The position numbers and the translations under genes were made by a program. Below, one piece after another: positions 32,919-62,799 of a stretch of 64,000 nt of DNA. The notes under the pieces are model-generated. The model saw only the letters and a program-made list of their open reading frames with translations, had not been told where the DNA came from and searched no databases. Source of the DNA: Panorpa germanica (taxonomy: Eukaryota; Arthropoda; Insecta; Mecoptera; Panorpidae); assembly GCA_963678705.1 (NCBI GenBank), contig OY783206.1, positions 23,881,807 to 23,945,806 of the forward strand, read 5' to 3'. The first letter of the stretch is position 1. The number at the start of each line of letters is the position of its first letter.

Positions 32919-35382
32919 TTGGAGGTTTTTCTATCAATGTCCAGGTTTCATTTTTCTTATGTGCATCAAGTTCTTCATTGATTGACTTTATCCATTCATT
33001 TTTATTTGTTGAATGTACTGCTTCTTCATATGTTTCAGGAACACAGGATGAGAATAAACACAGATGAGTATGTTCTTCAGTACATGGACAGTTGAAATTC
33101 TTCTTTTTTGTTTTATTTCTTGGTCTCAATGTCACATTACTGACAGGAGGAGAATCAATTCTGGTGTTAGGTAAGTATTCACTGTCGGATGTTGACCTGT
33201 TTCCTTTTTCTGTTTCATATGAACTTTCTGAATTTGTGTCGTTGTCAATCAAGCTGTCCTCTTCCGTTGTTGCATTTTCTCTTACATCTTCTTTTCTTGT
33301 ATTTGTTTTGTCATTTTCAGTTTCTGTCTCATTCAATTCTACCGAAACAAAATCTCTTTTCACTGAGGATTCAAGAAATGTAGCATCTCTGCTCTTTATT
33401 ACCTTTCTAGTATTTGGTAATGTGAATCTGTATCCTTTTGTATGGTCGCAGTATCCGATGAAGATCATTCTTTGAGCCTTTGGATCCCATTTTCTGCGTT
33501 TTTCTTTAGGTAGATGAACCATTGCTTCGCAGCCAAATATACGCATATGATTAACATTTGGTTTGCGTCCAGACCAGATTTCCATAGGAGTCTTGAAAGC
33601 TAAGGATTTGGTTGGGGAACGATTGATGATGTAAGCAGCAGTGTGTATTGCATCTGCCCAATACAACTTCGGCAGACCAGCGTTGAGTAGCATGCACTTC
33701 GCTTTTTCAACCAGTGTCCGATTCATACGTTCCGCAGTCCCATTCTGTTCAGGCGTGTATGGTGTGGTGGTCTGATGAATGATTCCGGCACCTTTCAGGT
33801 AATCAGAGAAGGCTTTGTTATCGTATTCAAGTCCGTTGTCTGTACGAAGAACCTTTATACGAGCATCCAATTGATTTTCAACTTCTTGCTTGAATTCTTT
33901 GAATTTACTGAGCACTTCGGACTTGTTGTGAAGAAAGTATACTGAAATCTTCTTGGAATATTCATCTAGGAAGGTTAAAAAATATCTGCTCCCACCGAGA
34001 GACTGGGTTTCCATTGGTCCACATACGTCAGAATGAACCAATTCTAGTGGTTTGGTGACTCTTAATCCATCACTTTTAAAAGGTAACCGTGTCTGCTTTC
34101 CTTCTTTACAAGTTATGCATTTCAGATTTTCTGTATTTCCTGAGAAAGTTAAATGCTCTGTGTTATCAGACAATTTTTTCAAAGTTTGGAAATTAAGATG
34201 TCCCATCCTCTGGTGCCAGCAAAAAGCATCTTTTTCATGTTCAACACTGGACATGTGCGCAAGGCTTTCAGACATGTTCAGTCGGTACATGTTGTTTACA
34301 ATGCTCGCAGTTGCTATAATTTGATTCTTGCTGTTCATGATCACACAGCCTGAGGTATCAAATTTCACTTGGCCTCCATTTTTAATAATTTGACTTACAG
34401 ATATCAGATTAGTTGCCAATTCAGGAACATATAAGACATTTGTGAACAGAATCTTATTCTCTTGCCCGTTTTGGTCATAAATGTTTAAGCTGACTTCTCC
34501 TGAGCTTTGCACAGATAACACTTTGTTATCAGCAACACGAATGTTCTTTGTTATAGGGGTAGTTTCCTTTACAATTATATTCTTGGTCTTAGTCATATGT
34601 GCCGAAGCACCGGAGTCTATGTACCAAGCATCATCATAGTGGGATGATGTAACAAACACAGCAGCATGAGAAGAGCTAGGTTTCTGAGTCTTGTTCATGG
34701 TTTTGTATTTGTTGCATTCAGAACGTTTATGTCCATATTGATTGCAGGAATAACATCTCGGACCCTTGTAGAACTTCTTCTTTACAGAGTTGTTATGAAA
34801 CTTCTTGTTGACAGCAAAAGCCGTTGTTTTGTTGTCTGAATTTCTAACATCTTGCAATAGTTTTGCTTTAACACCGTCTGCAGTTATTTTTGTGCCTGAG
34901 CTTTCGATCGCAATAATCATTGGTTGATATGATTCGGGCAGACCGGAGAGCAGCAATGTCCCGAGCCACTCGTCGTCCACTTTAAAGCCAATGTTGCGCA
35001 GCTTGTGAGCAGTTGACATAATTTTGCTCACATACTCTTCTATACTTTGACATCCACTTAACGATGTGTTACATAAATCACGTAGCAGACCAACTCGGCG
35101 TGTAAGTCCTGAGTCGTCGAACACTGCAGCCAATTTGTCCCAAACTCCTTTGGCCGTGTTTTCCTCTTGGATATGAACGTAATTGATCGGATCAACCAGA
35201 AGAATTAACTTTGTTTTCGCTTTTGTATCACGTTTTGAATCTGTGGGTGACGCCGGGTTAACCTCAATACAATCCCATAATTCTTCGTGTTGTAGGTATG
35301 TTTTCACTGCGAATTGCCAAGTCGAATAGTTTTCACGGCCGGTTAACTTCTCGATTAATGCCAGTGAATTATTCGATGCCAT
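32899..35382 (-). pseudogene. Copia gag, protease and integrase part of the polyprotein
   Basis: It reads from an ATG at 35382 for 827 codons. The N-terminal gag (UBN2-type) is followed by a zinc knuckle, CYSCNQYGHKRSEC (CX2CX4HX4C), then the aspartic protease box YIDSGASAHM. A pre-integrase HHCC zinc region follows (HQRMGHLNF and CITC). The integrase core has the Asp residues of HSDVCGPM and RTDNGLEYD and the Glu in TPEQNGTAERMNRTL. An acidic linker leads toward reverse transcriptase. The frame ends prematurely at 32899. A four-A run (plus-strand T run 32910-32913) appears to hold one base too many, throwing reverse transcriptase into another frame. In intact copia these are one open frame. 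Confidence 0.9.
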
Positions 35383-35526
35383 TTTTATTCGTTGAGAACA
35401 CTTTATACACAAAGAAGAACAGAAACAGTTTCAACAGCCACGCCCTTTTTTTAAGGTTATGTTCACCACACTAAAAGTCTTTATCCACTTTTCCGAAAAA
35501 CACTCACTAAACGTCTCTAGGTTTAT

Positions 35527-36159: not shown

Positions 36160-36770
36160 TGGGCTTGTGTCCTATGTCTTAATTTCTATAAAACTGTACT
36201 ATATATTGATAAAGTGGGTTACTAGAACCTCAAATGTTCAATTATTTTCTTTATATTTCAAGAGATATTAACCGCTAGTTGCTATCTCTTTTATACAACA
36301 GAGCGTAAAGAGATTGCATATTCAAGATAGAACTCTGGCAAGTTTACAGGTTACCAACCTTACAACTCATGAATCTAAGCTATATGTATTTATATATCAA
36401 AATATCAAATATTATTTACAGCTATTTCAAGGAACAATAAAATTTCATTATTATGTCTGCCGTAAGAGGGTTAAATAAAATAAAAACTTATTATTCTTTG
36501 ACTTGACTTGATTATTTCGACTACCAACGGCTACAAAACATTTTCACGTCACTGACCTACTCAGAAATAACTGAAGTTAAAATGCATTTCACGCCATACA
36601 AATATGGCCGACCATTTCAAGCGCTAAAACTACAATTCAAACTTTTAATTGCTATATCTCCGTTAACATTTAGGTATTTAATAAAATAGATACGCCAATA
36701 CACATTTATTAACATTAATTTCTATCAACAATTGAAAAATCGACCACTAAAAAATGAGGACACCAGCACA
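36160..36770 (+). mobile_element. MITE family A, nearly complete (611 bp)
   Basis: It starts TGGGCTTGTGTCCTATGTCT after ATTAA and ends GAGGACACCAGCACA, a mutated right terminal repeat. The interior is collinear with 9861-10497 but lacks part of the TTTAATTATTAAAGGGATTC module. Confidence 0.8.
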
Positions 36771-37218
36771 TTTCTATAAACTGTGCAATATATTGATGAT
36801 TGATAAGTTGGCTAGAACCTCAAATGTTCAATTATTTGTTAATAAGTCGCTATATTTTAGGAGATATTAACAATGAAAATACTAATTTTTTCACTTTAAT
36901 TATTAAGTTCCAACGTTGTAGAAAATTTCAAGATATGTAACGTCACGTCCGCTAAGTTGCTACTGTTTTATACAACGAAGCGTAAAAGAGATAGTATATT
37001 CATCCCTGATCTATTATCTATAAATAACTGACCTATTCCTGCGACATGTATGTCATAAATATGGCCGACAACTGAAGCGCTAAAACTGCAATTCGAATTT
37101 TTAATTGCTCCGTCAACATTTAGATATTTATTAAAATAAAAATTGCAAAATGCATTTATTCTACATTTATTTCAATCAACAATTAAAAAAGCGACCCTAA
37201 AAAATGAGTTCACAAGCA
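36771..37218 (+). mobile_element. MITE family A, tandem neighbour copy
   Basis: It begins in register with the family (TTTCTATAAACTGTGCAATA, GGCTAGAACCTCAAATGTTC) directly after the previous copy. It ends AAAAAATGAGTTCACAAGCA. The two share a head-to-tail border with no extra sequence. Confidence 0.7.
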
Positions 37219-38729: not shown

Positions 38730-41700
38730 TTAGGTGGATAAATATAATCTATGATAATCGTTTGCGCCAAAAGCACAATTACATTTAGGACATTTTCGTT
38801 GACGCGTTTCATAACGTGTTCTCAAACAATCCCAACAAAATACGTGGAAACATTTTGATAGAACAGCATCCTTGCGTTTCACTTTGCAAGATGGACATGT
38901 TAAGGTTTCTTTGTATTCCCTAATTTCTTCCAACATTACTTCGTCAATTGAAGTACCTGCCATTTCCATCTTTTTCATTCTTTCTGCTTTACGTCTAAAT
39001 TGAGCTAGCTCCTCCTAAAATTGAAAATATATACATTAAGAAAAAATGTTGATCTCTTTCTGCACTTCCAATGCGCGCAGTCTTTTACCTGCAATCTCTT
39101 TGTTTTATAAGCTTCTGCTTCCAGAGAACTTGTTTTCTCCGCAACAACTTGTTGGGCTTCCTTCATTTGTGAATGATATTTTTCTAAAATACCAAATAAT
39201 TGCCATGACAAATCAGTAAAACATTCACAGAAAATGAGAAATCATTAGGAAGGCCTTAAATATTTAAAAGAAAGCTACAATTATTATGTACGGGGCCTTT
39301 CAAAGAAAAATGAGGCCTAATATTATAGAAAATAGGTTTATGAACTAATTTTTTAAAATTTTATTGAAATATATATATAATGGAAAGTTGACGAAGATAT
39401 GACTATTTAAAATTTAAATTTGTTGTACAGCTTCATTTTTATATATATTTTGGCGTTAAGCGATTAGTGTTAAAGTATGCAAACTAATAAGTAATCGATT
39501 TTATTTTTTTTGTTCATTACATTCATAATAACAAGATGTGCTCCGTGACAGTTCTCAGTAGTATCTGACGTATCACAGGCTCTTTTTCCCTCTGTTATAT
39601 AAAAGAGATAGCAACTTATAGAAAAGAAGAGAGTAAGAATTAAATTGATAATAATATTGCCACTTATTAAAAATAACTGGATATTTGAGGTCCAAATAGG
39701 CAAATTATATAGTACATTCCAAGGCATGTGACCTCACGTCCGCTATGTTGCTATCTCTTTTATACAACAAACCGTAAAAGAGATAGCTGTTCATGACAGA
39801 ACTCTGACAAGTTTACAAGTTACTAACCTTACAGCTCATAAATCATTGCTATATGTATTTATATATAGAATATTATTTACAGCTGTTTTGAGTAAAAATA
39901 AAGTTTGAATATTATGTCTGCCGTAACGGGATTAAATAAAATGAAAACATATTATTCTTTGCAAACTAACACATGCGTACTAGATACTCAGGACTACCAA
40001 TAGCTACAAAACATTACCACAGCACTGACTGAATCAACAAATAACTGACCTATCCCACCTACATGGATACGATATAAATATGGCAGACATCGTAGCGCTA
40101 AAACTACAATTCAAATTTTTAATTGATATACCTCAGTCTACATTTAGATATTTAATAAAATAGAAACACCAATACACATTTATTAACAAATGAAAAATCG
40201 ACCCCTAAAAATGAGTACACAAGCTACACTCATGAGGACACTCTACAAGCCCATTCACTCTCCAGTTTCATATTACATTACCTAAATGGAGTTTCAGATC
40301 TGCTGCAGATTGTGCCGACTCTATTGCTTTTCTTTTATGCATTTCTAATGCTTGTTGTCTTAAAACTAATTCTTTTTCAACAGTAGTTAAAGTATTTTGT
40401 AAAATTCTTTCTTTTTCTTCTAATTTTCTTAATACAGTATTCATTGCATCTATTTGTGATTCTCTAGTAGTCACCTAGATATTAAAATTAAATTGTAATA
40501 TTTCATTTTTAAACTCAATCGAATACTTCTAATTTGTCACGTAATATTTTACCTGTTCTTGCAAAATTTGCTTTTCTTCTCTAAGCATCTTATGTAACTG
40601 ATTTGCTTTTATTCTATCTGACATTAATTTAAAATTAGCGTCATCCTTTTCTCGTAGTTGTTGAACTAAACGTGAATTTTGTTCCTGCATATCTTCAAAA
40701 GCTTGACCAGTTACTTCCATTTCATTTAATAATGCTTCCTCTTCCTAAAAATAATGTACTTTAAATGGTCATCTGGCGGTTTTGTTAGTGGTTAGTCGTT
40801 AAGTTGTTACAATTTATCAATAACAGAAGGATAATACAAAAATTATAAGTGTTAGTAACAGAAGGATCTGTATCTGGATTCCTTAACTTATGGATGTTTA
40901 AAATATGACGAAACGTGATAAGGGAGACGAGTATTAGGCTCCGTACTGTCATACCTTGTTTATTAATAACTAAAGTTAACGACCAAAAGTGTTATCAGAG
41001 GTAGAGATTATTAATTGATTTAACTGTTTTATTCCGTAACTTATTGAAAATCACTATATCTGGCAGAATTCTAAAATTTTGAATTATTTTTCTTATATAT
41101 TTTATTCCTTTTTCTATTACGGGCAACCTAAAAAGTTTTAGCACTTTACTTGGTCGTTGCTGGAGCCCTGGTTTAACCAGTTATGAAATTGAACTATAGT
41201 ACAGAAATGTGAATTTGGGGGCCACTTAATTCTAATATAAATATTCTTATTAATAAAAATAGATTGTAAAACACGTTAGATCGCGTAAAATTGATTTTGT
41301 GGAACCACTTTTAAAAAAAATATAGTTGCTCTGAAACCAAAGCCAATAAAAAAAACAGAATAATTTCTGTTCTACGAATATAAATCGTACTCACTACCGA
41401 TCCGGCAAAGGGTCTGGTGTAATGCCCAGCAGGCCAAGCACCATCTGCAGGTTTCTGAGACGCAACTTGTTTCTGTAATTCATATTTTTGTTCTTCTAAT
41501 TGTTTTATCTTTCGTAGAGCATCCTCATCTGCTAACTTTTTTCTTTCATCCCGTTTATTTTCTTTTGAAAATATTGGCTAAACATAAAAATATTAGTTAC
41601 GAATTATTTGTTTTATAAAGAAAGATAAATGATAATAGATTTATTTGCAATATTTTACTTGTAATTTTTTAATTTGTTGACGAAGATCTTCTACTTCTGC

Positions 41701-44700
41701 TCTTGCTTTCTTTTCTGCCGCCATCAGAGTTACTTTGTCCCGTTGCTCTTTACTTACCCCCTTGTACATATCTAATAGTAATTTCATTTCTTTCTGGTCA
41801 TTCATTGCCTTTCTAAAAATTTAAGAAAAATAAAGTATTTAAATGTTCCGAAATTTGCTCTTTATCAATGAAAAATAAACAAGTTTTAAAAAGATATAGC
41901 TAAAAAGCTAATTTTGGCATTAACTGAGGTGATGAAATAATTTTCAGTACGGGATAATTGTTGAACTTACTTAAGTTGTGCCTTCAAATCACGAACCAAT
42001 TCTGATTCAGCGATTTTAGCTTCCTTTGCCCTTTGAGCATCTCTTTGCTCCTTTTCTGTTTTAATTGGTTCTTTCTTAACACCAGCAGCTCCTTTCTCGA
42101 TTTTAACTCCAGCACCCTAAATAAAATTATAAATATTGTATAAGTTATATATGCGGTTTATGGATTGTTTATTCAAATAAATTAAAAACTAAAGATACAT
42201 TTTGAATATACCTCTTTCTTGATAGTTGGAGATTGTGAAGAACCAGCCAAACCATCCTTATTTTCAGTATCTTCACTCTAAAGATGGGTTTTTAAAGATT
42301 TTTGTAAAAATTAAACAATGAATAAATAAATTATTGACAAGCTGGTGCAAGTATTGGTGCAGTTGCGACTTTTACTACTAAAAAACAATAAGCTATCTGA
42401 ATACCTACTTCAGTTTCCTCGCTTTCTTCTTTTTTGATACCAGTACCACCTTCCTCTTTGATTAAAGAATTGCCATCACTTCCTGCAGGTTCTTCTTTTA
42501 CAACACCTCCACCTTGTCCAGAAGAAAATCCTTCACGCTCTTGTTTCATATCTAATTCACCGTCTTGATCTCCACTGTTAGCCCCTTGTTGCCCCACACG
42601 AGCAGAGAGCTCTTCAATGTCTTTCTTGAGCTATTCAAAAAATTGTGTATATTAAGATTTAAATTATTATTAAAATGTTAAATATTTCAAGCATTTTAGA
42701 ATTGCATTCAAAACAAAAAAATGCGAATATAAAGAAAGCAATACATAAAGAATAGAAATGAAGAATAGGATATTATGACAGCAATAATGTTTAAAAACAA
42801 AAATTAAAAAAAGAGCAAGAAATGAGAGAAAACGGATATTGAGTTTATTAATCCCACATATAGTGAAATTGTCTTAACTCATGCCGAAATATGTATCCTA
42901 GAGAAACGCAAAATAAGTTAAAATAAGTAAACAAAAAGTTGAAAGGAAAGAACCACAGATATCAGAGCACACGAAAAGAAGAGAATACTCCTATTCTTAG
43001 GAGTATGATCCTTATGTTATTGTGTTTTTTGTTTTTAAGATTAGTTGGCTGAAACATTAGATCTGTTAATAACACAAACGTAATTAAAATTAAAACACTG
43101 AAAGACACGCACTTTACACTCTTGTGATTATTTTCAAATTTGCAACATATCTTATTTATTGTATATTTCATAAACTTTTACAACTTGAAAAGTACAGGAG
43201 ATATAAATTCAGATTTTCCTCTACCTTTGAGGGTTGGAGGAGTCAAATTTGAAAAAAATCAGTTAAAACATTGGCCCATATAAAAACATAACTTGAAGCA
43301 ATCTATAAATAAGTATTTCCGTGTCCCGTTTCCAAAAAAAAATATGGGAAAACAACTTCTAAGTTGTAAGATGATCTGAGTCCTTCAATAGTGTTTCTAC
43401 AAAATTGGCAAATACATATTAAAAATAATTAATTTAGTTAGTTGTTATTAATTTAAAAAAAAGTAGCTCACTGAAGTATTGACCTTGGCGTTCTCCGCAT
43501 TCGCATCTTTATACTTCCGTTTATAGCGATGTACCTCTCCTTTTAACTGACCATTATGATTCTGCAAAGATGTTATAAGATGTCTCATTTCTCTATTAAT
43601 GGGTCCTGTTTGTTCATTAGCAGCTAAATTTTGTTCAAATTCAATTCGTAACATTTCGTATTCTTTGCGTAGCTGAGCTAACACGTCCTCTAATTGTATC
43701 ATCTCACCACGCAGCTTCTTCTGCGCAATTAATTCTTCACTCTATTAAAATTAAAAGAAATTAAATTTATACAGGCTGTTGAAAAAATTATCAAATTTAA
43801 TGTGCTGAGAAATAGACTTGTGAACTTATTATTTAAGTGACATTTTTTTTATTATTGATTGAAATATATGTACATTGGCGTTTCCCTTATTTTAATATCC
43901 AAAAGTTAACGGAAAGGTAGCTATTTAAAATTTAAATTTCAGTTTTGCCGCTTGTGATCTGCATATGACGTCCCAGCAGAAATTTTTCTTTTTTAACAAG
44001 AATCATAATATAAAACGTGATGTGATGCACAACGCAGTTGTTAGAAGCAAATGAGTATCACACACAGACTCGTATGCTTCTCTGTTGCAAAAAAGAGATA
44101 GCAAATCACCGGATGTGACACAGGCAGATTTATTTTTAATTAACATTGGATCTCTTTAATGTTTAAAGGTATTGGAGGTCCTGTCAGTCAACTGTATCAG
44201 TATATAGTACATCAATATATAGTAGTTAGTTTATAGAAATTAAGTCATGATTCACAAGTCCATTAAAGTCTCCGGCCAATATAGGAACATGTTTTGTAAC
44301 CTTATGTCTAAAATACACACCTCCATCATTTCTATTTGCCTAAGATGATGATTTTTCGAGCTCTGCAGCGCACTCCTTGTTTCATCGAGCACTGTCTTGA
44401 TCTGCATCGATTCATTGTATAGTACAGAAAACTGCGACTGTAAACATTTATATTCGGTTGTTTCTACAATAACAGATTCTGGAAGTTGACGAATCTGATA
44501 AAATAAAAAATTATATAATCATTATTATTACTTAAGAGAATGTTTATAATCTAAATATATTATAAACATACATCCATTTTAAGTTTTTCAACTTCTTTAA
44601 GGGCGTCTCTATGTTGTTGATGTAATTTATCGAGCTCCTGAAGACGATTATTTGATAATTCGCGATATTCTTCTATTTCTTTATGCAAATCTTCTAATTG

Positions 44701-47064
44701 CGAAGATGCCACACTAGTCGTTGCTACGGCTTTACCTCCTAATAAAACGTAATAATACCTTTATGTTTTACAATTAAGGATTTAGAAAAACAGTAATTAT
44801 TTATGAATTTGTTGTTAACACATTTTTAGTAAATATTTTCAGGTGTGTAATTATTTATAATAATTACAAATATGAGTAATTGACTTAAATTTATGTCCCC
44901 AAGAGAGTACGTATAAAAAGTGTGTTAAACGAAAATGAAATGCACAAATAACTCCTCTTTAGTTTCTGTAATTTTTATATACAAAAATTAATCGTGCTAA
45001 CCTGGTCCTGAACTTGTCCCTGCTTTATCATTGTCACAATGAATTTGATGATAAGTTTTAAGTTTTTCGATAGCCTCTGCAAGATGATTTTCTAATTTAT
45101 CATTCCTGGAACGCACCTAAAATTGTTACGGTATTAATACAGATTAGCTTTTTCTGCAAATTAATATTTAAATCAGAGTTTCATCCATTTATAATAAAGC
45201 GTATGGATGCATTCCTTTTCGAATTGGGCGAATTAATATCGTGTAATTGTGAGATATCTACTACTAAAATTATTTAAGGATATTATTTATAGATTGGTTA
45301 CAGATATTAAGTTCCATCTATTGTATCGGCTCATATATACAATTTTATTTACCTTTAATAACTCGTATTGTAAATCATCAATTTGATTTCTTAATTCAGC
45401 AGCTTCAGTCTCTTTTCCAGTAACTGAATCTTGTAATTCAGAAGTTTTCAAACACATAGTGTGATATTTTTCATGTAAAGATGTATTTAAAGCTTGTAAA
45501 TTTCTATTCTCTGTTTGAATTTCGATATTAGTCTGTCGAATTATCTCGTCTAGATTTTGATTGTATGCGCCATCATCTCCTTTTAAAGCAAAAGTAATTT
45601 TTTCATTTCTTTGCATAAGTCGATCAAACACTTGAACTATTTTAGCAACAGCTCTTTTTGAAACTTGAACTCTGTTTGCTAATTTGTCATCGAGTTCTTC
45701 TTTGTCCCAAGTTGATAATTGCATAAGGAAAGATGTTGTCGTTTCACTTTCATCTAAAATTTGAATTTCATAATAATTACAAAAAATTTGGTTTGAATTT
45801 AAGTATATATATAATGGAATAGTAAAAAGTTACTTTTATTTTCTGATTCGTCTGCTGTTTCTGCGTCAAATCTTTGGAGAAGAACTCTAATATCCTCGTT
45901 CAGTTGATTCCAATAACGATTTACAACATTTAAAACAGCGTCATCCTGTGTTTGACGTTTTTCTAGCTGTTCTATTCGCTGGCGAAGCTCTGCTTCTGAA
46001 CGATGTCTTTGTTCAATACGCTATGAAAATGGTATTGGTATATAAATGAATATTACAGCGTTGCAAGTCATTTTAAAATAAATAATTTCTTACTAATAAG
46101 ATACATATTGATAAATTTCGCTTTTCTTATTATTTTTGTAATAATTTAAAATTAATTAATTAAAGAATAATTTCAGTTACTTCCCGCTAAGACAGTTGCG
46201 TGATGACAGTTGTATGATTTATTTGATATAAATTATTAATATTTCCATGGAATATTTAATTGCATTAGTTTCCAGTCCAGTTTGGTTTATTAAAAACACA
46301 ATATAAATGAAATTTGAAAAAAATTAAAAAGAAATGAAACTTGAAAATGAAATGAAATCTAATTAGAATAAATATTACTAGCATTCGATTATCGATCTAT
46401 CTGCAGTGTTTAGCATATGTTACGAAACTATTTATTAGAGAGTAACTAAATTTAAAGAAATGTGTGTGCTGTGTGTTATTACAAGATGATTTTAAGTAAC
46501 TTAAATTGAATTTATTTGCTCTTTTATTCAGAAGAATTTGGATTGATTGTTAAAATTTATATTTCTGTAAATAATTTGACAAGACACTTGCAGTTATTAT
46601 TACATTGATATAAATAAGTATTGCGATGTTAATATGTGTCCATTTCTGTTAAATATTATTAGTAAACTATTTTATTTAAGGTTAATACAACTACTAATTG
46701 ATAAATGATTGAAAATAGGAACTCAGCTCTGACATTCGTTTGACAGCTGTCATGAACCATTATTTCGATTAAAAAGGAATTTTAATAGCAAAAACGTTAT
46801 GATAACTAAACGAAGGACCTTTTAAGCAATGAAGTTTCATTTTAATTTAATTGTGCATTTAAAAAAACTTAATATAATATGGTAAGGAAATACCTAACAC
46901 ATTTGTTTTACCTGTGCTAACTTCTTGTTTTGAAATTGTAAAACCTTTATGTCCATTTCTTCTAATGTAGATATAGGCCCAATTAAATGGGGCTCAAATT
47001 GAACTTTTTTAATAGGGGGCTGTCCCTGAGGTTGGTTTCCATCATCAGCCGGTCGTTTCGACAT
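38730..47064 (-). CDS. Bre1: Bre1 (RNF20/RNF40) histone H2B ubiquitin ligase
   Basis: Bre1 is the nuclear RING ligase that works with Rad6/UBE2A-type E2 to monoubiquitinate H2B, coupling transcription elongation to H3K4 and H3K79 methylation. Sixteen exons join in frame to 1000 aa: 46912-47064, 45834-46020, 45353-45753, 45002-45116, 44572-44738, 44321-44494, 43472-43741, 42409-42630, 42212-42277, 41971-42116, 41659-41812, 41395-41577, 40553-40744, 40282-40474, 39089-39183, 38730-39014. The N-terminus [15 protein letters not shown] is typical. Long coiled coils fill most of the length. An acidic, Lys/Glu-rich linker (about residues 480-580) holds KKEE- and KEEP-type motifs. The C-terminal RING ([20 protein letters not shown], then [19 protein letters not shown]) is complete, and the protein ends at LST. 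The exon-12 donor could be 3 bases shorter. Introns near 39.3-40.3 kb and 43.8-44.3 kb hold family A MITEs. Confidence 0.97.
39335..40256 (+). mobile_element. MITE family A, long composite copy in Bre1 intron 14
   Basis: It opens AATAGGTTTATGAACTAATT and ends GAGGACACTCTACAAGCCCA. Inside, modules of both orientations appear: TTGAGGTCCAAATAGGCAAA, then GTGACCTCACGTCCGCTATG, then the right-hand modules of the complete copy (ACATTACCACAGCACTGACT). It is probably two merged copies. Confidence 0.65.
43810..44267 (+). mobile_element. MITE family A, about 455-bp copy in Bre1 intron 6
   Basis: The left is AATAGACTTGTGAACTTATT and the right is AGTCATGATTCACAAGTCCA followed by TTAA. This is a shorter subfamily with the ACATTGGCGTTTCCC, CATATGACGTCCCAGCAG and AGTATCACACACAGACTCG modules. 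Confidence 0.75.
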
Positions 47065-49222: not shown

Positions 49223-52200
49223 TTATTTTTGGTTTAACTGTCTTTGGACAAGTTCATGCATCTCCAAATGTTCTTTAAAAGCTTTAGTTCGGATAAATGA
49301 TTGACCACATTGATTGCAGGTGTGTTGTTGTTTGCTACGAGTATGGATAGCCATGTGGGCTTGCAGGCTTTGTAAATGATCGAAAGTTTTACTACATTTA
49401 GTACAATTTATCTTCATAGGATCATGTTCATTTCTATGTTTAGCCAAAGCTGCAGGAGTTTTATATTTCTTTCCACAATCAACACATTTTAAATTTGAAT
49501 TTGTATGTGAAAGCATATGACGATTTAAACCATCCAACTTTATAAATGAAGCATCACATAAATGACATTTATGTTTCTTCTCAACAACGGCATGAATTTC
49601 AAGAGTGTGCTCCTTTAATTGGCTCGCTAATTTAAAGGTTTTGTCACATACTGAACAAGCATGCTGTTTAGCATCGGTGTGACTTGCTTTATGTTTTAAA
49701 AGACTGCCTTCTAGTGAAAATACTTTTAAACAAATTTCACACTTATATGGATTAAACTTGCTGTGGGTAAGTTTGTGAGTTTTCAAATATTCTAGAGTAT
49801 CAAACCGACGGAGACACATATCACATTTATATTCATTATCGCAGAATTTGTATTTCTGATGCCGGATAAATTGACCCTCTTTTGTAAATATCTTTTTGCA
49901 GTTTTTGCATTCGAAAGTTTTGGTACTAGTGTGTTCTAATACATGACCCTTTAAGTGCCTTTTATTGCTGAATTTCTTTGAACAAACACCGCATTCATAG
50001 AGTTTTGCTCTCGGTTTACTTGTTTTCGGAGTTTTGTTTTGTGCTTCCTTTTCTTCTGGAACTTCTTCTTCCGCTTCCACTTCTTCTTCGGTGTCGGAAA
50101 TATTATCAGAATCATTTTCCTCATGCGCTTCTAATGATGTTTCCTCAACAGTACTAGGAGTTTTTGCAGGAGACTTTACTGGAGTCACCTTGTTAGCAGT
50201 TCTTGATGAAGCCGACTTGATAAGTGATTTTACAGGAGGCTGTTTGGTAACTGGTTTTGCTGGGGTTATTTCCTCAGATTTTACAATAACTTCTTTCTTC
50301 TTAGCGGGACTATTCTCGCTTTGTGATGCAGTTGCATCATCCACACGTTTTCTCTTTAGTGGTGATGATGGAGCAACAGGACCTGAAATTATTATCGATT
50401 TATTATATACATAAAATTTTTTTAAAAAAACATAACATAAATAAATCGCAAATGTATTGTGAGAGAGAAAATAGGAAGAAGGAACCCCCCAAATGAAGAA
50501 CCAGCAGAATTACGATATAATTAATATATATTTACTTGTTTCCATTTCTTGTTGCTCGTTACTTTCAACTAGTTTGCGAAAACTGCTTAGCTTGTCCAAA
50601 GACTCAAACATTATTTTGTGAATTTCATCGCTCTTTGATGTTACCTGTGAAAAAACATTGTCAATAATAAATAAATAGTAAATATATAACTTTTATTATT
50701 TATTGTTTTAATATATTCCGTTCAGGGTGATTTATAATATAAATTGTATATCAGAGTATCTTCTAAAACACATGATTGGGATGTATATTTAAACATAAAA
50801 AATATGTAAAATTCCGTTTTTTATAGATAATAACTATTTTTACATGAAAATGTTATGTAAAGTTTGTTAGTCCATACACGTTGAACTTCTATTCGTGTCA
50901 TTATTCTACGGCGTTTCCTTTTGGTTAAATAATAACATATAAATTGATGTCTATTCCTCTTTATATTACAAATAATTATGGAGCCGTCAAACATGTTATT
51001 TTTTATTGAATTAAATCTATTTTCAGCTAAAGTATTTGCAATTTTTTAAGGTTTGCAATGAAATGAATTGCAATGAACAAGGAACCGATCATGTGAATTT
51101 ATATGAAAACAAATATTTCATTATACAGCTTTTCGCTTTATTTGAGAAGCTCGAAAAATGTGTCTACTCAGACTCCGTACAGTGCAGAAATTAAAATTGT
51201 ATTAATTCTATTAAAGCAAGCAAGTGAATATGCCATTAAATGTCTGCATTTTTTTGTTCAATTGTGCCCCTTTAGTTATCCTTCTTTAAATAACTATTTT
51301 AATTGTTTATATCTCTAATAATATTGTTATTATTTAAAACAAATCACATTTCAGATTCCGAGTGATAACTTTATCAGTAATTGTTAGGATATTGTTCGCA
51401 AGACAAATTATAAATATATGCTATTCTACGTGAATCACTTCATTGGTTCTCAACATATTTATACTGGACTCTAGAGCAGATTTACTACTATGAGGTAGTC
51501 TAAGATAAATAGACATTTAATAAAATGGAATTTGATGATGTGGTCAATTGTTTAGTATTTCTATTATTATTATTAGAGCACAAATTTAGATGAATTTATA
51601 TATTTTTCATTTTTCTATTACACAAACTCTGGTATTTAATTTGGTTGGTGTCGGATGTTTTTTTTATAGACTCCGCAATCATGAACTTATTCCTACGTAT
51701 GAGTTCAAATGAGTTTTGAATGTAAATGCTTTTGAATAGATTGTAAATGAATTTACGATTTGCGCACAGTCATATAGTTGCAAACACATATTTTGTTACA
51801 CCCAAAAGTTAGCCTACAATGTAGACCATGTTTATCATTAAAAATTATTACCTTTGTTAATTCCTTCTTCAAATCAGCAACTTTCTTATTAAGTTCAGTT
51901 ATTTCGGCGTCTTTAGATGATACATCTTCTTTCAATTTCTCATGCTTCGCATTAATTTCGCGATAATTTTTAAAAAGCGATGTGTTTATTGTTTTTAATC
52001 GCACTATTTCAGTTTCCAATTCAGTGTCAACTATGGTTGATTTATTTCTTCCATTTCGTGGTTTTGGAGCACCTGTAAATATTACAAATTTATAATCAAA
52101 ATGATTTTAACTCGTTTTAAATGTATACACACTTTTTATATACCTTCAGCCGCAGCGTTTTCATTTTTCTCTTTTAAACCATCAAATATCTTTAGCATTT

Positions 52201-52738
52201 TAACAACATTATTTTTAGATTCTTTCACCTTCTCCAATAGATGACTTTTTAAATTAGCAGATTCTAATGTTGATAAATCCAATTCTGTAGTAACTATTGA
52301 TTTTTCATCTAGAAATAATAAATTGAACAAAATCTAACCTTCAATAAATCAGTTCATTTATATTCTTACCTATTTCACATTCATATGATCGCAAAAGTAC
52401 ACCAATATCTTTATTTAATCTGTTCCAATATTGACAAACTGTCTGCACGACTTCAGATCCCTTAGTATGTTTCTTTTGAAGTTGACATACAAGCTGACGA
52501 AGCTGGAAATTAGTAGACTATAAAACAGATCTTTACTTTTATTTACTCAAAGAAAATGTTAAAAAGCTGTTAATTAATTTGAATAATTAGGTTAAGATTC
52601 AATAAAGTGTTAACTAATCCACTGTATGCTAAAATATTTTTTTAAGTCAGAATAATTACTACTAGAAATTTTAATAAAATGGTTACTAACTTGCTTCACA
52701 TTTTGTTCGTATTCTGTCTTAATTACATCCACATCCAT
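49223..52738 (-). CDS. Chimeric protein: Bre1-like N-terminal coiled coil fused to nine C2H2 fingers
   Basis: Six exons (52691-52738, 52370-52502, 52144-52308, 51852-52072, 50536-50644, 49223-50382) join in frame to 611 aa. The N-terminal 220 residues match the start of Bre1 next door: VCQYWNRLNKDIGVLL against Bre1 [16 protein letters not shown], and DLKKELTKVTSKSDE against [15 protein letters not shown]. The intron phases are the same (0, 1, 0, 1), with one extra phase-1 intron after 52144. The last exon starts with a basic KRKR stretch and a Lys/Ser/Pro and acidic linker, followed by about nine C2H2 fingers (CGVC, CKNC, CDMC, CEIC, CSVC, CHLC, CVDC, CTKC, CNQC). The second ends in Cys rather than His. 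There is no RING. It is presumably a nuclear DNA- or chromatin-binding protein. The start M52738 (GACATGG) is the first in-frame ATG, but an upstream coding exon is possible. Joining of the two halves is inferred from phase and homology. Confidence 0.78.
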
Positions 52739-53652
52739 GTCTGCCTCTAAATAATTGATTTTGTCACAGAAACTTGTTTTAATTTGTATAATGTTATTCA
52801 ATAATATGTAACTTTTATTTGGAAATAATTTAATAGTTTTCTGAAAATGACGCTGAGCACTGTCAATATTCTTGCAAATGGAATCAACTGTTTATTCTCA
52901 AAATAAGTTTATAGCACCATAAGAGGATGGATTGATATACAAAAAAATTAAGTTATTAAACTTTGATATATACTATTTAATAACGTACAATATTGATAAT
53001 AAATTAAACAAGCGCTGAGTAGCCTAACCTCTAATATCTTCTAATCAGAACAAGCAAGAACAAGTATTTTAATAAACTCTGGCATCCTTTTGCAGCGCCA
53101 ACGTTTGATAAAGTAACGGATAAATTAAAATGTTGTGGCGGGAAATTTAGATGTTAACTTTTACAGTTAATACATAGTAATTATTTTCTATGCAATTCGA
53201 TTCTCTTAATCTGTACAAATTAGAAGGTATTATAATTAACAATTAAACGTATGGGTAGGTTATATCTTTACATAAAAATAGACCTTGGCTGTAACGAGTG
53301 TACTAATCCAGTAAAACATTTAATAAAGTTTTTCATGAGTTCTTAATTGTTCATTCTACGAATTTTAATATGAAAACTTAAGTAAACTTTAATTAAAAAG
53401 GTGCTTTTCAGATTTCAAGATAAAATTGAATTAGGCGTAAAGTAAAAGAAGATGAAAAGGTAATTTAGAACAAGTAGTAGGGAAGTTAATATTTGTAAAT
53501 TTTACATTCTAAAAAGAGAAGAGAAAATAATTAAGAAATAAAATTGCCCCAGCGGTGTACAGACACCTAGCTAAAAATCCATCCCTGATTTAAGGCAGTT
53601 CTGACAATTCCCATCTGGTAGCACCACAGCTGTCATTTGAAAATCATTGAGA
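52739..53652. promoter_or_regulatory. Divergent intergenic region, candidate bidirectional promoter
   Basis: The 914 bases between the start codons of the minus-strand chimera and the plus-strand phosphatase must contain both promoters and 5' UTRs. No TATA box position can be fixed. No transposon is seen here, unlike most spacers in the window. Confidence 0.45.
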
Positions 53653-54243
53653 ATGAGTTTTCTTGATCAAATAAAATTAAATAAAATTAAATTAAAAGAA
53701 TCAACAACAGTAGTAACTAATTATGATGGCACTAGATATCTAGAATCTAAAAATTCAAAAGATATTAAATTGGAATCCTCAAAATATGGTTTTGTTGTTG
53801 ATAATAAACCAGATTGTACGCCAGTATGTGTTTTTGAAGAAAAACTATTCTTAGGGTCTCAAGATTGTGTAGATTTAGAGATTTTACAAAAATATTTAAT
53901 AAATAATGTTTTAAGTGTAGGCATTGAAACACCAAATATGAAATTAGATGATAATTTCAAAATAAAAAGTATATTCATTCCCTGTCTTGATTTACCGGAT
54001 ACTAACTTAACTGATGTATTGTTTAAATGTAATAATTTTATAGAAGATTGTTTACGAAATAATGAAAGAGTTTTGGTACATTGTAATGCAGGAGTTTCTA
54101 GATCATCATCTGTGATCATAGGATATTTGATTTTGAAAATGAATTATAGTTATGAGGAAGCTTACAATACTACTAAGGCAGCCAGGCCTTGTATTCAACC
54201 GAATACTGGTTTTGTAAAACAATTAAAGATATTGAATAAATAA
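53653..54243 (+). CDS. DUSP19-like dual-specificity phosphatase
   Basis: A single exon of 196 aa. The start ATG at 53653 follows an in-frame TTG AGA that is not used. Residues 1-50 resemble the N-terminal region of DUSP19 (MSFLDQIKLNKIKLKES). The catalytic domain starts near residue 60 (VFEEKLFLGSQD) and includes the general-acid loop ILDLPDTN-like segment (CLDLPDTNL). The active-site P-loop VHCNAGVSRSS fits HCX5R with all catalytic residues present. The AARPCIQPNTGFVKQL segment is typical of the family. DUSP19 (SKRP1) acts on or scaffolds the JNK pathway, so a cytosolic MAP-kinase role is likely by family. The lack of introns may mean retroposition or simple intron loss. AATAAA overlaps the stop codon region. 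Confidence 0.88.
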   Translation: MSFLDQIKLNKIKLKESTTVVTNYDGTRYLESKNSKDIKLESSKYGFVVDNKPDCTPVCVFEEKLFLGSQDCVDLEILQKYLINNVLSVGIETPNMKLDDNFKIKSIFIPCLDLPDTNLTDVLFKCNNFIEDCLRNNERVLVHCNAGVSRSSSVIIGYLILKMNYSYEEAYNTTKAARPCIQPNTGFVKQLKILNK

Positions 54244-54581
54244 ATGTATTTCAAACTATATTGTTATTTATTTGCCGCCAATACCTAATCCTTTATTAGA
54301 GACTCGGTGCAAAAAAATTCTCGAAAGTAATTGCACATTAAAAAAAATATCTCCGTTTATTTATACGTATTATTTTTAAAATTGAAAAGAAAATGATAAT
54401 AACAATGCACGTATTTATTTTATCAAGTATATGCAGGGTTCACGACCGTTTCTGTGAATAAGCCTTTATAACTGTAATGAATTGACACTTGGTACTACTG
54501 TAATTCAAATCTGAGTTTATTTACCAAACAAACGCGGGAGAAGCTGATCACATATTTCACGTAGTTTTAATATTTGTTAAA

Positions 54582-55608
54582 ATGGAAAATATAAGGTGTT
54601 CTCACTGCGACAAAATAATACGATTACCTTTTAATCAGTGCAAATTATTTCATCTTATTTGTTCAAATTGTTTGAGTCATCAAAATATGACCACTGGAGA
54701 CATTGAAGATTCGACAGGTTGTGGCAGTTTAATTATTTTTATGCCACTATTCAACAAGATATATTCGTAAGTAAAAATTAATATTACAATTTATGTAAAA
54801 TACAAATAAAATATAGCTTATATTGTTTTGTAGGAATGTTGTCGAGACTTGCCAATATAACTGTGGATATCAAGATTTGAGTATTAAACTAGCGGATCAC
54901 GAAAATAATTGTTTCAAAAAAGATCGACTTACAAGATGTCAAATATTTAACTGTAACTGGGTTAATGTCTTATCAAAACTTGTTGAACATGTTAATATTA
55001 GCCACAATAATAATTTAAAAAATATTGAAAATATAATTATTTCTTCAACTAATGGAATCAATCAAATTTATTTGGTCGACCAAATTTTCGAAACGAGTGG
55101 AGATAAAGAATTATATTGGCTTAGGTTCGAGCAAAAAGATGGTGTAAAAAATCTTTCGATGCAGCATATAGGTCCTACAGATCCTAAAATGGATGAAAAC
55201 AGGATCATTAAAAGATTCACAGTCTCATCACTTGAAAATAAGAGACTGTTACTCAAATGTGATGTTTTATTAAATTGGAATTATCTACATAGAATTTACA
55301 AACATATAAAAAGCAGGGGTTCTGATATAACAGTTTTAAAAGGAGAGACTTTTGCTGTTAAACCAGACGTTGTGATGGATGACTCTTTAATGACATTCAT
55401 GGGTAAGGAATTACAATGTGTAATCTGCACTATGATTATGCTATCAGGTATTAGATTATGTCTCAGAGGACATAGCATGTGCGAGGAATGTTCCAAAAGA
55501 ATTACAGCGTGCCCAATTTGTCGAGGGGCTATATCAGAAGGTAGAAATTACAGTCTGGAACATGTGGCTGCAAAATTTAATGAAAAATTACAATTACGTT
55601 CCTCTTAA
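54582..55608 (+). CDS. SIAH-like zinc-finger protein with a C-terminal RING
   Basis: Two exons (54582-54766, 54834-55608; phase 2) encode 319 aa. The N-terminus looks like a decayed RING (CSHCDKII, then LFHLICSNCL) that lacks the final Cys pair. A SIAH-type zinc finger follows (CQYNCGYQDL, HENNC, CQIFNCNW, HVNISHNN), then a divergent region in the place of the SIAH TRAF-like fold. A clear RING closes the protein: CVICTMIMLSGIRLCLRGHS, then MCEECSKRITACPICRGAI, with NYSLEHVA after it, as follows the RING in SIAH proteins. Canonical SIAH order is RING, zinc finger, TRAF-like, so the good RING is at the wrong end. It may derive from tandem units with the first RING decayed and the second unit cut short. 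A ubiquitin-ligase role is inferred from the intact RING. Confidence 0.75.
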
Positions 55609-58046: not shown

Positions 58047-61035
58047 CTAAACATTGCTATGTGTTTTCATATGACTCGTCAGAACAACTTTTGTGGTGCA
58101 TGCCTTTCCACAAATTTCACAAACATGTGGTTTTTCGCCTGTATGGGTTCTTCTATGATTTTGTAAACTAACTTTAAGTCTAAATGCCATTGGACAAATA
58201 TCACATTGATGAGGCCTTTCACCTATAAAAAAATAATTGTTTAAATAGATATAAAATAAACAACGTTTCCGTTTTTACTATTTGAAGGAGGTGTATCTCT
58301 TCACCAATACTTACTGCTATGTGTTTTCATATGTGTAGTAAGAACCACTTTTGTTGTAAACGCTTTTCCGCAGATATCACAAACATGAGGCTTTTCCCCC
58401 GTATGAGTTCTCCTGTGATTCTGGAGAATAATCTTAAGTCGAAACGACATAGGGCAGAGATCGCACTGATGAGGTCTTTCTCCAGTGTGAATTGAATTAT
58501 GTTGCGATAATTCAGTAGAAGTTCTAAATTTTTTATTACATACGGTACATTCATATGGTTTAATATCGCTATGCGTTTTTAAATGCCTTTTAAGATCACC
58601 ATTAGTTCTTGCTGTATGGGGACACAGACTACATAGATAATTCTTTATTCCAGTATGTGTTAACTGATGGTTTTTTAATTTTGACGTTGTCTTGAAACGT
58701 TTCTCGCAGAGCTTACAACTATATGGTTTCTCATCACTATGTCTTTGCGCAACATGTATCTAAAAGAATTTAAACATCATTATTAACATTTTAAATAGAT
58801 AAATTTATAAGGTAAAGGGATTTATATACTATTATACCTTTAAACTTGAATTTGAACGAAATGCCTTTCCACAACCATCGCAAACGTAGCTCCGAATTCC
58901 CCTATGTATTAACTCATGCGATCGTAGATACCATTTATCAGCAAAACCTTTCCCACATTCGAGACACTTGTGATTTTTTAAACCTTTATGACGAATCATA
59001 TGTTTCTTAAGGGATTTTAGATTCTTGTAAACGCCATTGCAAATTTCACAAATTTCTTTCTGAAAATAATTAATTACCACAGAAATAAGTGTCTGATTTT
59101 AGCAATATAATATATATCTCCTCGTATATTTCTTTGGAATTAAAAGAAAGGATCTTTATCAAAATTTTCTTCCACAAATTTGATAATCTTTCTACATATT
59201 TTCTTTTAAATCAACAAAATTAGTACCTTTACAGCTCGTGTTGAAACTTTCTACAAATTATACCCTACAAACATATCTCTAATTATATTCTACAAACATA
59301 TCTCACGTAACGTAAAAATAACATAAAAAATGTACCATTTATATTTTTTTTTCTTTATAATATAATGTAAGATTACATAACAAAAGTTAGTTCTCGATAT
59401 AAATTTACAGTTTTTGAAGTTAATGAAGCTTTTTATGCCAGATATATACACACATAGAAATAAATATATTACACAATATATCTCTTTTGTGTTTTTGTTA
59501 TGCTATAATAATAATATATATATTATTGTATTATAATTCTACATGATTTTACGATTTGTGTATATCGAGATTTTTCCAAATTAAAAACGTGGGAATTGTG
59601 ACATATGAAAACTTATTGCATAAGCCATAAACTAAAAAAATTCTCAGTTTTTTATGGGTTATAATTAATATTATATCCTGCTTATCGACAATACTTTGTA
59701 GTTTTTTTTTAAAAAAGGGAGCTACTTAAAGATTGGAGTAAATAAAAAAAAAACATTTAGATCCTTTACTATTTCGAAAAGAAGATAGGATCAGACAAAC
59801 TTTCAAAAGCGTACCTGATCTTCGAAATGTTTACTGAAATGCTCATCTAATAGACTTGGTTCCGTAAAACTTTCTCGACATTCTGGACAAGATAAGGACA
59901 AATTGTAATCTCTATCAGATGTTTCGTCTTCTTGAACTGAAGATTCATTCTTAGAGTATTCGATATGTTTCCTGTATGTTAGAAGACGCAGAATCGAAAA
60001 TCAGAATGTTTTAAATATATATAACAAATAAGAAACGTAAACTATACACAAAAAAATTGACGTTCACGCACCTTTCTTTTTGATGCCTTACAGCCTTTTG
60101 GATAACTTTTCTACTTTTCCTTATAATTCTTCTTTCAACTCTTTCTTTAACTTTTCTTGAAGGTTTTATTTTTCTAATGTTTCTTTGTTTTCTAGCAGCG
60201 TTTTGTAATTGCACTTCTGAGATATTTGATTCTTTGATTTCAATTTTTAAATGGTTTATTAATTTTTCGTCTACGCTGGTGCTGGGGCTATCAACTGATT
60301 GAGATGATTCTTCTTTTACGTCTATAAATTCAAAATTCTGACCTACCGATTCAGTTTCAATATATGTAAGATTTCTAACTTTATCTGAAATTTCAAATAA
60401 CATTTAGGTATGCCTTTCATCAATTTATATAAATAATGATAAACTCTGTAGTACAGAAATTTATTAAATATACATATTAAATAGGCTCAACAATCAAATT
60501 AAAAACAAACAAGCGTCTACATTATATACAGTCAAATAATTACAGATATAAATTAAATAAAAATAGTAAATACAAAAGATTCATTATTTCACTACCTGTA
60601 AAGAAATCTGAGTCTTCCCGTTTGATTATCTGAAAATGTATATTTTATAAATAAAGTAGGTCATATTTGTTATTAATAAAAGAATATTTGACAGTAACAA
60701 AAGTACCTCACTCTTTTTTAATATATCATCATTTTTTATGCACTGATTACGAAAATTAAAATACAAATCAAGTCGTTCTACACAATTAATACATAAATTT
60801 GAAGGCAGTCCATCATTTTCTTTTACCTGAAGATACAATTAACATATTATCAAAATAATATCAGTTGTTTATTTATAATAAACAAATCTAACCAAACCTC
60901 TAAATTTGTTAATACACTGTATAAATTTTTTAAATTAAAACTGAAAATTGATTTCATAGTGATTTCTGCCGTTAATAAACAAGCTCTACATGTTTTATGC
61001 ATATCATATTCGCTTTTTGTACTATTATTTGTCAT
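58047..61035 (-). CDS. ZAD and C2H2 zinc-finger transcription factor, 11 fingers
   Basis: Eight exons (60898-61035, 60707-60826, 60596-60629, 60072-60384, 59815-59971, 58838-59059, 58315-58759, 58047-58222) join in frame to 534 aa. An upstream TTG is in frame, but M61035 is the first ATG. The ZAD dimerisation domain spans exons 1-2, with its zinc ligands in CRACL and CINCVERLDLYFNFRNQC. A Glu/Ser then Lys/Arg-rich linker (exon 4) follows. Eleven C2H2 fingers begin with CPECRESFTEPSLLDEHFSKH. Exon 7 holds five with TGE(K/R)P-like linkers. Exon 8 adds two that copy the last two of exon 7. The exon 7 donor is GTAAGT. If it is not used, translation ends five codons later at 58301, giving a nine-finger form. 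It is expected to be a sequence-specific nuclear factor. ZAD genes form large, fast-evolving insect families. Confidence 0.85.
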
Positions 61036-62346
61036 TTTATTAAAATCTTGTATTGTTGTATATGGAATTGTTTCTGTCAAATAAAAAAACTGTCAAATGT
61101 TAAATGAGTAAGGTCAGTTTACATGCTCGTTTACGAACATTCGCGGCTTCTAAAGTAAAGCTGAAAAATTCGCATCTTTGACGGATGTGGAATATACAGT
61201 ATTTATTGAAAATTCATTTATAACAAATGTTCAAATTAATTTTATTGTTGAATAATTTTTTATCTTAAATGTTTATTAAAAGTTTTATACATTGCTTATA
61301 GTTTTTAAAAGCGAGAAAATTGACGAAGGTATAATTATTTACACAAAGATGTTCTAAGTATGCTAATGTGCAAGATATATTTCTCAAAAAGAAATAAAAT
61401 AGGTAACAAAACGTTGTTTCTTAGGTACATCGTTTACTGTAACAGGTAATTTTTGTTATATTATATAAACCTTAACTTAAACGTACCTTTGTTGTACGGG
61501 TAAATTTATGTATTTAGCGAGATAATAATATATTATTATATACCATAAAACAGTGTTTTACAAATTTTATAATAGCAAATTTGTTTAGTCCAAATCACGA
61601 TAGTTCGGCGGCAATTTATACTTAAAAGAGGTTATAACAGCGGTATTAATCTATAATGCGTTAATGAATTTTATCTTATTCGTTTCTATATACATTTTAG
61701 AAAAATAAGAGAGTGTTTTTTAGTTATATCGGCAGTTTATACTCCACAACTTGTTTTAAGTCTGAGTCACCGCCGAACTCTCATAATTTGAACTATACAT
61801 ATCATTATCATTGTATTATGAGGATTAACAAAAGATTGAAGGTTGAAAGTGTGAACTCATTTCTTATGGGTCGTTTTTTTAATTTTTAATTGAAATAAAT
61901 ATTAATATATGTATTGACGTTTCTATTTGTTAAAATATTCAAAAGTTGACGGGGTATGAAGTATGAATTTCAATTTTGCAGCTACTTTGACTTTTTTTCA
62001 CAACCATCGTAATACAAAACTTGATGGGATACACAACCAGATGTTAATGACGTATCACACACACAGTATGCTTCTCCGTTGTATAAAAAAGATGACAAAT
62101 CATCGGACGTTATATTTGTTATAACTTTGGATCACTTTAATTATTAAAGAAACAAAATGGCTATTTTTATTGTTAATATATTCTTAAACATAAGGAGTTA
62201 TTAAAAAATAATTAGATATTTTAGGTTCTGGTAGTTAGCTTTCTCAATATACAGTACAGTTTTATAGAAATTAAGTCATGGTTCACAAGCCATTTGCATA
62301 AATACAATAAAATCACAAAGCTTATTAAATTTGTTTAACAGAATAA
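61036..62346. other. Spacer between two ZAD/C2H2 paralogues, with a MITE
   Basis: AT-rich, holding the promoter of the 61035 gene. A family A copy occupies about 61852-62292. No other gene was seen. Confidence 0.5.
61852..62292 (+). mobile_element. MITE family A, about 440-bp copy
   Basis: It begins near GTGTGAACTCATTTCTTATG and ends AGTCATGGTTCACAAGCCA. It carries ATGTATTGACGTTTC, AAAAGTTGACGGGGT, GTATCACACACACAGTATGC and the GGTTCTGGTAGTTAGC module. The same short subfamily as 43810-44267. Confidence 0.7.
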
Positions 62347-62799
62347 CTAAGTACTACTGTGAGTTTTCATATGCGTGGTCAGAACAACCTTCTGGGTAAA
62401 CGCTTTTCCACAGATATCACAAACATGAGGCTTTTCCCCCGTATGAGTTCTTCTATGATTCTGGAGAATAATCTTCAGCCGAAACGCCATGGGACAGAGA
62501 TCGCACTGATGAGGTCTTTCTCCAGTGTGTATAGAATTGTGTTGCGATAATTCTGTGGTCGTTCTAAATCTCTTATTACAAACAGTACATTCATGGGGCT
62601 TCTCATCACTATGGATTTTTAGGTGTCTTTTAAGATCCCCATTTGTTCTTGCTTTGTGTGGACATAAATTACATAAATATTTTTTTATTCCTGTGTGCGT
62701 TAGTTGATGACTTTTTAAATCGGAAGTTGTTTTAAATTTCTTTTCACATAGATTACAGTTGTATGGTTTTGCATCACTATGCCTTTGAGCCACATGTAT
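62347..62799 (-). CDS. Terminal exon of a second C2H2 gene, paralogue of 58047-61035
   Basis: One exon of 151 codons including the stop, with an acceptor at 62800. It encodes five C2H2 fingers (CNLCEKKF, CNLCPHKA, CTVCNKRF, CDLCPMAF, CDICGKAF) nearly identical in order and sequence to exon 7 of the downstream gene. It opens with the same phase-0 IHVAQRHSD. It ends THSST, with no GTAAGT donor at that point. No further exon is recognisable up to 64000, so the rest of the gene (ZAD and first fingers) probably lies past the right edge, unless this is an isolated duplicated exon. Confidence 0.78.
   Translation of the reverse strand: MHVAQRHSDAKPYNCNLCEKKFKTTSDLKSHQLTHTGIKKYLCNLCPHKARTNGDLKRHLKIHSDEKPHECTVCNKRFRTTTELSQHNSIHTGERPHQCDLCPMAFRLKIILQNHRRTHTGEKPHVCDICGKAFTQKVVLTTHMKTHSST

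Follow-up and report, generated by a model that had tools for sequence, protein, structure and literature searches.

A predicted chimera of a Bre1 N-terminal domain copy and nine C2H2-type fingers adjoining Bre1 in Panorpa germanica

Next to Bre1, in a 64,000-nucleotide stretch of Panorpa germanica contig OY783206.1 (the whole of which was analysed and is called the window), lies a gene that is very probably a real Bre1-derived chimera, mechanism aside. Its front half is homologous to the N-terminal domain of Bre1, the ubiquitin ligase for histone H2B, and its last exon encodes nine C2H2-type zinc fingers (Table 1). Bre1 is the next gene downstream and on the same strand, as expected from the tandem position proposed in the initial annotation. 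The chimera is a shuffled dimerisation domain placed before fingers, a known plan with an unusual donor, and it is a probable gene regulator.

Table 1. Features of the chimera locus and the neighbouring Bre1 gene, in window coordinates.
Feature	Position	Strand	Description
Chimera gene	52738..49223	minus	six exons, one reading frame
Chimera exon 1	52691..52738	minus	residues 1-16 (MDVDVIK...); phase-0 donor
Chimera exon 2	52370..52502	minus	YWN-LN-DI-VLL part; matches Bre1 63-105 (Bre1 exon 2)
Chimera exon 3	52144..52308	minus	matches Bre1 124-164 (first half of Bre1 exon 3)
Chimera extra intron	52073..52143	minus	71 nt, phase 1; without counterpart in the window's Bre1
Chimera exon 4	51852..52072	minus	coiled coil; matches Bre1 191-247 (second half of Bre1 exon 3)
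Chimera exon 5	50536..50644	minus	109 nt; matches Bre1 248-278, weak alone; phase-1 donor
Fusion-point intron	50383..50535	minus	153 nt, phase 1; counterpart of Bre1 intron 4
Chimera exon 6	49223..50382	minus	KRKR basic stretch, charged region, nine C2H2-type fingers, stop
Bre1 gene	38730..47064	minus	16 exons, 996 aa; N-terminal domain, coiled coils, C-terminal RING

Gene model and homology of the front half

The spliced frame of the chimera comprises 611 codons plus TAA and starts at its first in-frame ATG, with no further in-frame ATG 5′ of it within the open frame. All five introns have GT..AG ends. The frame runs through all 611 codons without a stop; read in its other two forward frames, the spliced N-terminal part contains 22 and 30. 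G+C content by codon position was 45/27/25% in the N-terminal part and 45/36/26% in the rest of the chimera, compared with 31/22/26% in the long intron, used as a non-coding comparison. The first in-frame Met of the finger exon is residue 414, inside finger 3, so this exon needs the upstream exons. Given the lack of an early Met and the shortness of the preceding intron (153 nt), a single mRNA most likely carries both the coiled-coil exons and the finger exon.

The initial annotation held that the beginning of Bre1 had been copied upstream of the fingers, and this was upheld: the similarity exceeds that expected of generic coiled coils. With chimera residues 1-242 as query, blastp aligned residues 16-227 in order with Bre1 62-285 (103 bits; 71/225 identical, 32%). 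The Smith-Waterman score of the N-terminal part against Bre1 was 295, above all 2,000 shuffles (four kinds, 500 each). The strictest kind, which keeps each residue's class (hydrophobic, basic, acidic or other) in place, gave a maximum of 206 (n = 500) and a mean of 133; the three other kinds reached at most 104 (n = 1,500), with a mean of 63 for ordinary shuffles. Bre1's hydrophobic and charge pattern is evidently kept in the front half of the chimera. Taken singly, exons 2, 3, 4 and 5 had their best Bre1 matches in the right order. The Bre1 scores of exons 2 and 4 were each equalled or beaten by 0/500 ordinary and 0/500 class-keeping shuffles, and that of exon 3 by 0/500 and 1/500, respectively. 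Exon 5 was weak alone (13/500 and 49/500). Exon 1 alone was not significant (15/500 and 34/500) and matched best elsewhere, at Bre1 426-438; in multiple alignments, chimera M1 stands opposite Bre1 M37. Judged by sequence, the copy took Bre1 exons 2-4, for which the homology is clear, and exon 1 was probably copied as well.

Searches of larger sets pointed to the same parent. Across the whole window, tblastn of the N-terminal part (E ≤ 1e-3) had Bre1 exons 3 and 2 as its only non-self matches, and tblastn of the first 300 residues of Bre1 found chimera exons 2 and 3 (E 1.3e-11). A profile of human RNF20/RNF40 only matched the front half with an hhalign probability of 91.2% (E 1e-6, 189 columns), against 1.2% for the middle coiled coil of Bre1 itself as control; for a profile of three Bre1 proteins, the corresponding values were 98.1% and 1.7%. 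In a PDB search with the N-terminal part (177,635 sequences, E ≤ 10), RNF40 (BRE1B) was top at E 0.0017 among the 30 matches listed, followed by a match at 0.1. Generic coiled-coil models also matched the N-terminal part weakly (Pfam DUF3450, below its cutoff; NCBIfam SMC model, E 0.003), and a profile of the Bre1 proteins plus the chimera found a designed helical protein in the PDB at E 0.0019, after two human Bre1 chains. Since the unrelated DUF3450 model reached E 1.3e-4, the whole-PDB result is not decisive alone. Because unrelated coiled-coil models score weakly too, we give most weight to the blastp match, the shuffling tests and the controls run with the profiles. A generic coiled coil was rejected on the class-keeping shuffles and the middle-domain controls.

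The parent gene itself is readily recognized: its first 298 residues match human BRE1B (E 1.1e-48) and BRE1A (E 2.7e-41), and its C-terminus carries a RING (Pfam zf-C3HC4, E 2.9e-6).

Introns, junction and age of the copy

The initial annotation read the intron phase order of the chimera as that of Bre1. The first four Bre1 introns (phases 0,1,0,1) do have same-phase counterparts in the chimera, one exactly placed and three within gaps; however, the order in the chimera is 0,1,1,0,1, not identical, with the extra phase-1 intron inside the equivalent of Bre1 exon 3. Bre1 intron 3 and chimera intron 4 share an identical site between K and V in phase 0, and the last chimera intron falls within 2 residues of Bre1 intron 4. 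Bre1 introns 1 and 2 agree with the first and second chimera introns only if gaps of 11 and 7 residues, respectively, are placed beside them. Random draws matched all four introns in 2/2,000,000 trials, or 1/2,000,000 with uneven phases, under tolerances fitted post hoc; with a uniform 11-codon tolerance and uneven phases, the count was 292/2,000,000. Chance agreement of all four introns is rare.

The departure from Bre1 after the equivalent of its exon 4, also claimed earlier, was confirmed, with the junction at a phase-1 intron. Bre1 exon 4 is 115 nt, similar to the 109 nt of chimera exon 5. We propose that a partial tandem duplication of Bre1 (exons 2-4, probably exon 1) supplied the N-terminal domain, and that the copy became linked, within the phase-1 intron that follows, to a last exon encoding the charged region and nine fingers. 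As for repeats marking the duplication ends, none of 13 direct-repeat families (≥40 nt, 36000-58000) paired the chimera with Bre1.

In a four-sequence alignment, the front half of the chimera had 34% identity with the Bre1 of the window and 21-24% with the two human proteins, to which that Bre1 was 42-47% identical. With the two human proteins held together, six models had the chimera join 12-17% of the way along the path from the window's Bre1 to the human proteins; over 100 bootstraps, the central 95% of joining points lay at 0-24%, and none reached half-way. Branch lengths were 1.25 for the chimera and 0.12 for Bre1, about tenfold apart (bootstrap median ratio 12, lower bound 4). The duplication most likely postdates the separation of the window's lineage from vertebrates and took place on that lineage; the copy then changed fast. 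This dating assumes similar Bre1 rates on both sides and uses a tree of four sequences. Pattern searches for relatives of the chimera yielded 62 stretches in viral contigs and 59 in prokaryote genomes, with 0 confirmed in either set.

Retained parts and possible function

As far as the alignments tell, only the N-terminal domain of Bre1 is copied, and the middle domain and RING are absent. The 16 Pfam matches of the chimera (E ≤ 1) include no RING family, in agreement with the initial annotation, nor ZAD, BTB, SCAN or KRAB. The middle coiled-coil (WAC/Lge1-binding) domain is absent, the main alignment ending at Bre1 285 and giving way to a charged stretch and fingers. RNF20/RNF40 are predicted to have an N-terminal domain, a WAC-binding middle coiled-coil domain and a RING (PMC12802937, PMC13083169), with predicted flexible linkers between the N-terminal and middle domains; an RNF20 middle-domain construct begins at residue 321 (PMC12802937). 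The copied part ends near the predicted linkers.

Conservation is uneven along the copy. The YWN part keeps 20/43 Bre1 residues and 7/20 positions invariant among three Bre1 proteins, the exon-3 helix 15/42 and 7/12, and the exon-4 coiled coil 21/57 and 8/17; among the parts kept, exon 5 beside the fusion point is conserved least (6/21 and 1/8). Of the Bre1 tip (residues 24-62), the chimera has either no counterpart or a degraded one. Over Bre1 37-62, where the window's Bre1 is identical to human BRE1B at 18/26 positions, the chimera scores 3/16 with 10 gapped; it keeps one of the 11 invariant positions in this stretch, and a gap takes three.

This pattern bears on partner binding. The N-terminal domain of Kluyveromyces Bre1 is a parallel coiled-coil dimer with one Rad6 bound at one end, and K30A, R35E and R41E in yeast Bre1 abolish Rad6 pull-down (PMC10036116). 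Rad6 is bound by the N-terminal regions of Bre1 complexes, and by RNF20 residues 1-381 in combination with RNF40 (PMC10036116, PMC10959955); a further sequence analysis, cited in PMC10036116, assigns the yeast domain to RNF20 328-528, which lies outside the part copied into the chimera. Dimerisation looks kept in the chimera, to judge from its residues, and Rad6 binding seems doubtful because the Bre1 tip is lost or degraded. The E2-binding role suggested in the initial annotation was thus its weakest claim, with the reservation that the yeast-animal equivalence, drawn by hand, is weak: in a hand alignment of the yeast stretch, the window's Bre1 too is without K30 and R35. The yeast Bre1 domain, present in the PDB, was not among the matches of the chimera or animal Bre1 profiles, and because it goes undetected by sequence similarity the dimer step rests on name and position.

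The other half of the protein was as described earlier: the KRKR stretch lies ahead of the fingers, at about 50356..50345 in exon 6, and nine fingers, at about 49993..49256, were recovered both by Pfam zf-C2H2 (E 1.2e-33, nine stretches) and by a ligand pattern (nine complete sets, the second being C2HC, with Cys for the final His). Inspected by eye, the eight interfinger linkers all depart from the classical TGEKP type, so tight DNA binding is not assured. A PDB search with the fingers returned 45 sequences at E ≤ 1e-10, with ZNF568 best (1.3e-40) and CTCF at 8.6e-28; many C2H2 proteins match, so these name no donor. An origin of the array in the finger genes at 58-63 kb is not supported: matches to those genes are at 23-38% identity, compared with 31% for the array against itself in a shifted register.

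By analogy with known finger proteins, we lean towards reading the chimera as a sequence-specific DNA-binding protein that acts as a dimer, with dimerisation as the role of the Bre1 domain. The Bre1-type domain would pair chains, as a homodimer and possibly also with Bre1; the fingers would choose the DNA site; and, being without a RING, the protein should not itself ubiquitinate. Homodimerisation is suggested because the yeast Bre1 domain is dimeric. We infer splicing into one mRNA, dimerisation, DNA binding and use of the domain for dimerisation rather than Rad6 recruitment. In flies, over half of the C2H2 proteins have at their N-terminus a ZAD, which mostly dimerises, and N-terminal homodimerisation domains are present in most of the architectural ones known (PMC8998743). 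A Bre1 N-terminal dimer ahead of nine fingers would fit this plan. Like the ZAD-ZNF proteins, CTCF and CLAMP (insect C2H2 proteins; PMC8998743), the chimera has a likely N-terminal dimerisation module, a charged middle and C-terminal fingers, but its module is of the Bre1 type, with no ZAD among the Pfam matches. It likewise shares an interaction domain plus fingers with BTB-ZF and SCAN-ZF proteins (PMC8998743) and with MADF-ZF proteins, and differs in the donor of the domain, which is Bre1; our searches turned up no other case with this donor. Compared with Bre1/RNF20/RNF40, it is homologous over Bre1 62-285, has introns in common and is the adjacent same-strand gene, but has no middle coiled-coil domain or RING, a degraded tip, fingers instead and only about 32% identity.

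Other readings deserve less weight. Targeting of the H2B ubiquitination complex, or competition with it, as suggested in the initial annotation, is one possibility among several. The chimera could be a site-specific recruiter, its domain pairing with Bre1 or binding Rad6 and its fingers bringing H2B ubiquitination to chosen genes; we regard this as a tentative possibility. The domain is that of the Bre1 N-terminus, with its invariants partly kept from the YWN part to the exon-4 coiled coil, and the RNF20 1-381 fragment binds Rad6 with RNF40. However, the missing or degraded tip corresponds to the end that contacts Rad6 in yeast, the alternative RNF20 counterpart (328-528) lies outside the copy, and the copy changes about tenfold faster than Bre1. 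The tip argument is weak, because the window's own Bre1 is without K30 and R35. Alternatively, pairing with Bre1 could yield RING-less, inactive dimers and less H2B ubiquitination, as the absent RING and the kept domain pattern would allow. This is improbable: Bre1 chains also pair through their middle domain and RING (PMC12802937, PMC10959955), so the N-terminal domain may compete poorly, and 32% identity leaves pairing with Bre1 uncertain. A sequence-specific adaptor for H2B ubiquitination, which would pair with Bre1 and direct or block the mark at chosen loci, is on the whole unlikely; if real, it would be a paralogue of the ligase's own N-terminal domain that, with fingers, steers the mark in one lineage.

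The remaining two readings question the gene itself. The model may have merged two genes, one for a short coiled-coil protein like Bre1 and one for the fingers: chimera intron 4, between exons 4 and 5, is long (1,207 nt), and a stop within a dozen codons past the exon-5 donor makes a short form possible. Yet intron 5 is short, has GT..AG ends and shares its phase with Bre1 intron 4, and the finger exon offers no start codon until finger 3, which makes two genes very improbable. That the locus is a decaying, functionless copy of the Bre1 front domain would suit the long branch of the chimera, but is scarcely credible in view of the 611 codons without stop (against 22 and 30 stops in the other forward frames), the coding-type codon-position composition and the nine complete ligand sets.

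With the chimera, the N-terminal domain of Bre1 would join the interaction domains put before fingers by exon shuffling, an example of evolution making a probable gene regulator from spare parts. Since the donor is a chromatin enzyme encoded next door, it can be tested directly whether a fragment of a ligase may turn into a partner or antagonist of its parent at particular loci. The claim that no Bre1/C2H2 fusion had been described agrees with the titles and abstract openings of open-licence PMC papers, among which we found none; an orthologue with an automatic annotation may well be on record as a zinc-finger protein.

Other features of the window

Head to head with the chimera, a dual-specificity phosphatase gene lies at 53641..54243 on the plus strand (Pfam DSPc, E 8.6e-30). 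It is followed by a Sina-like gene of odd layout (54570..55608, plus), with a weak N-terminal Sina_RING match (E 5.9e-4, below cutoff) and a better one (E 1.6e-7, above cutoff) towards the C-terminus of the open stretch that comes next. Two very similar finger stretches of the TGEKP type, recognized by eye on the minus strand (62799..62347 and 58759..58301), probably reflect the tandem duplication of a finger gene. By eye only, a CRAC stretch at 61092..60850 resembles a ZAD; Pfam gives no match there. The stretch 16120..16509 (plus), without a Pfam match, presumably represents the C-terminal part of a MARCH5-type protein. Mobile elements include a polyprotein in two overlapping reading frames of 843 and 382 aa (35430..31782, minus), which we take to be Copia-type, and a broken transposase in three ORFs (19751..21983, plus), presumably hAT-like. 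A diverged interspersed repeat links 36321..37217 with 39710..40224, in pieces up to 91% alike, and one of its copies lies within a Bre1 intron.
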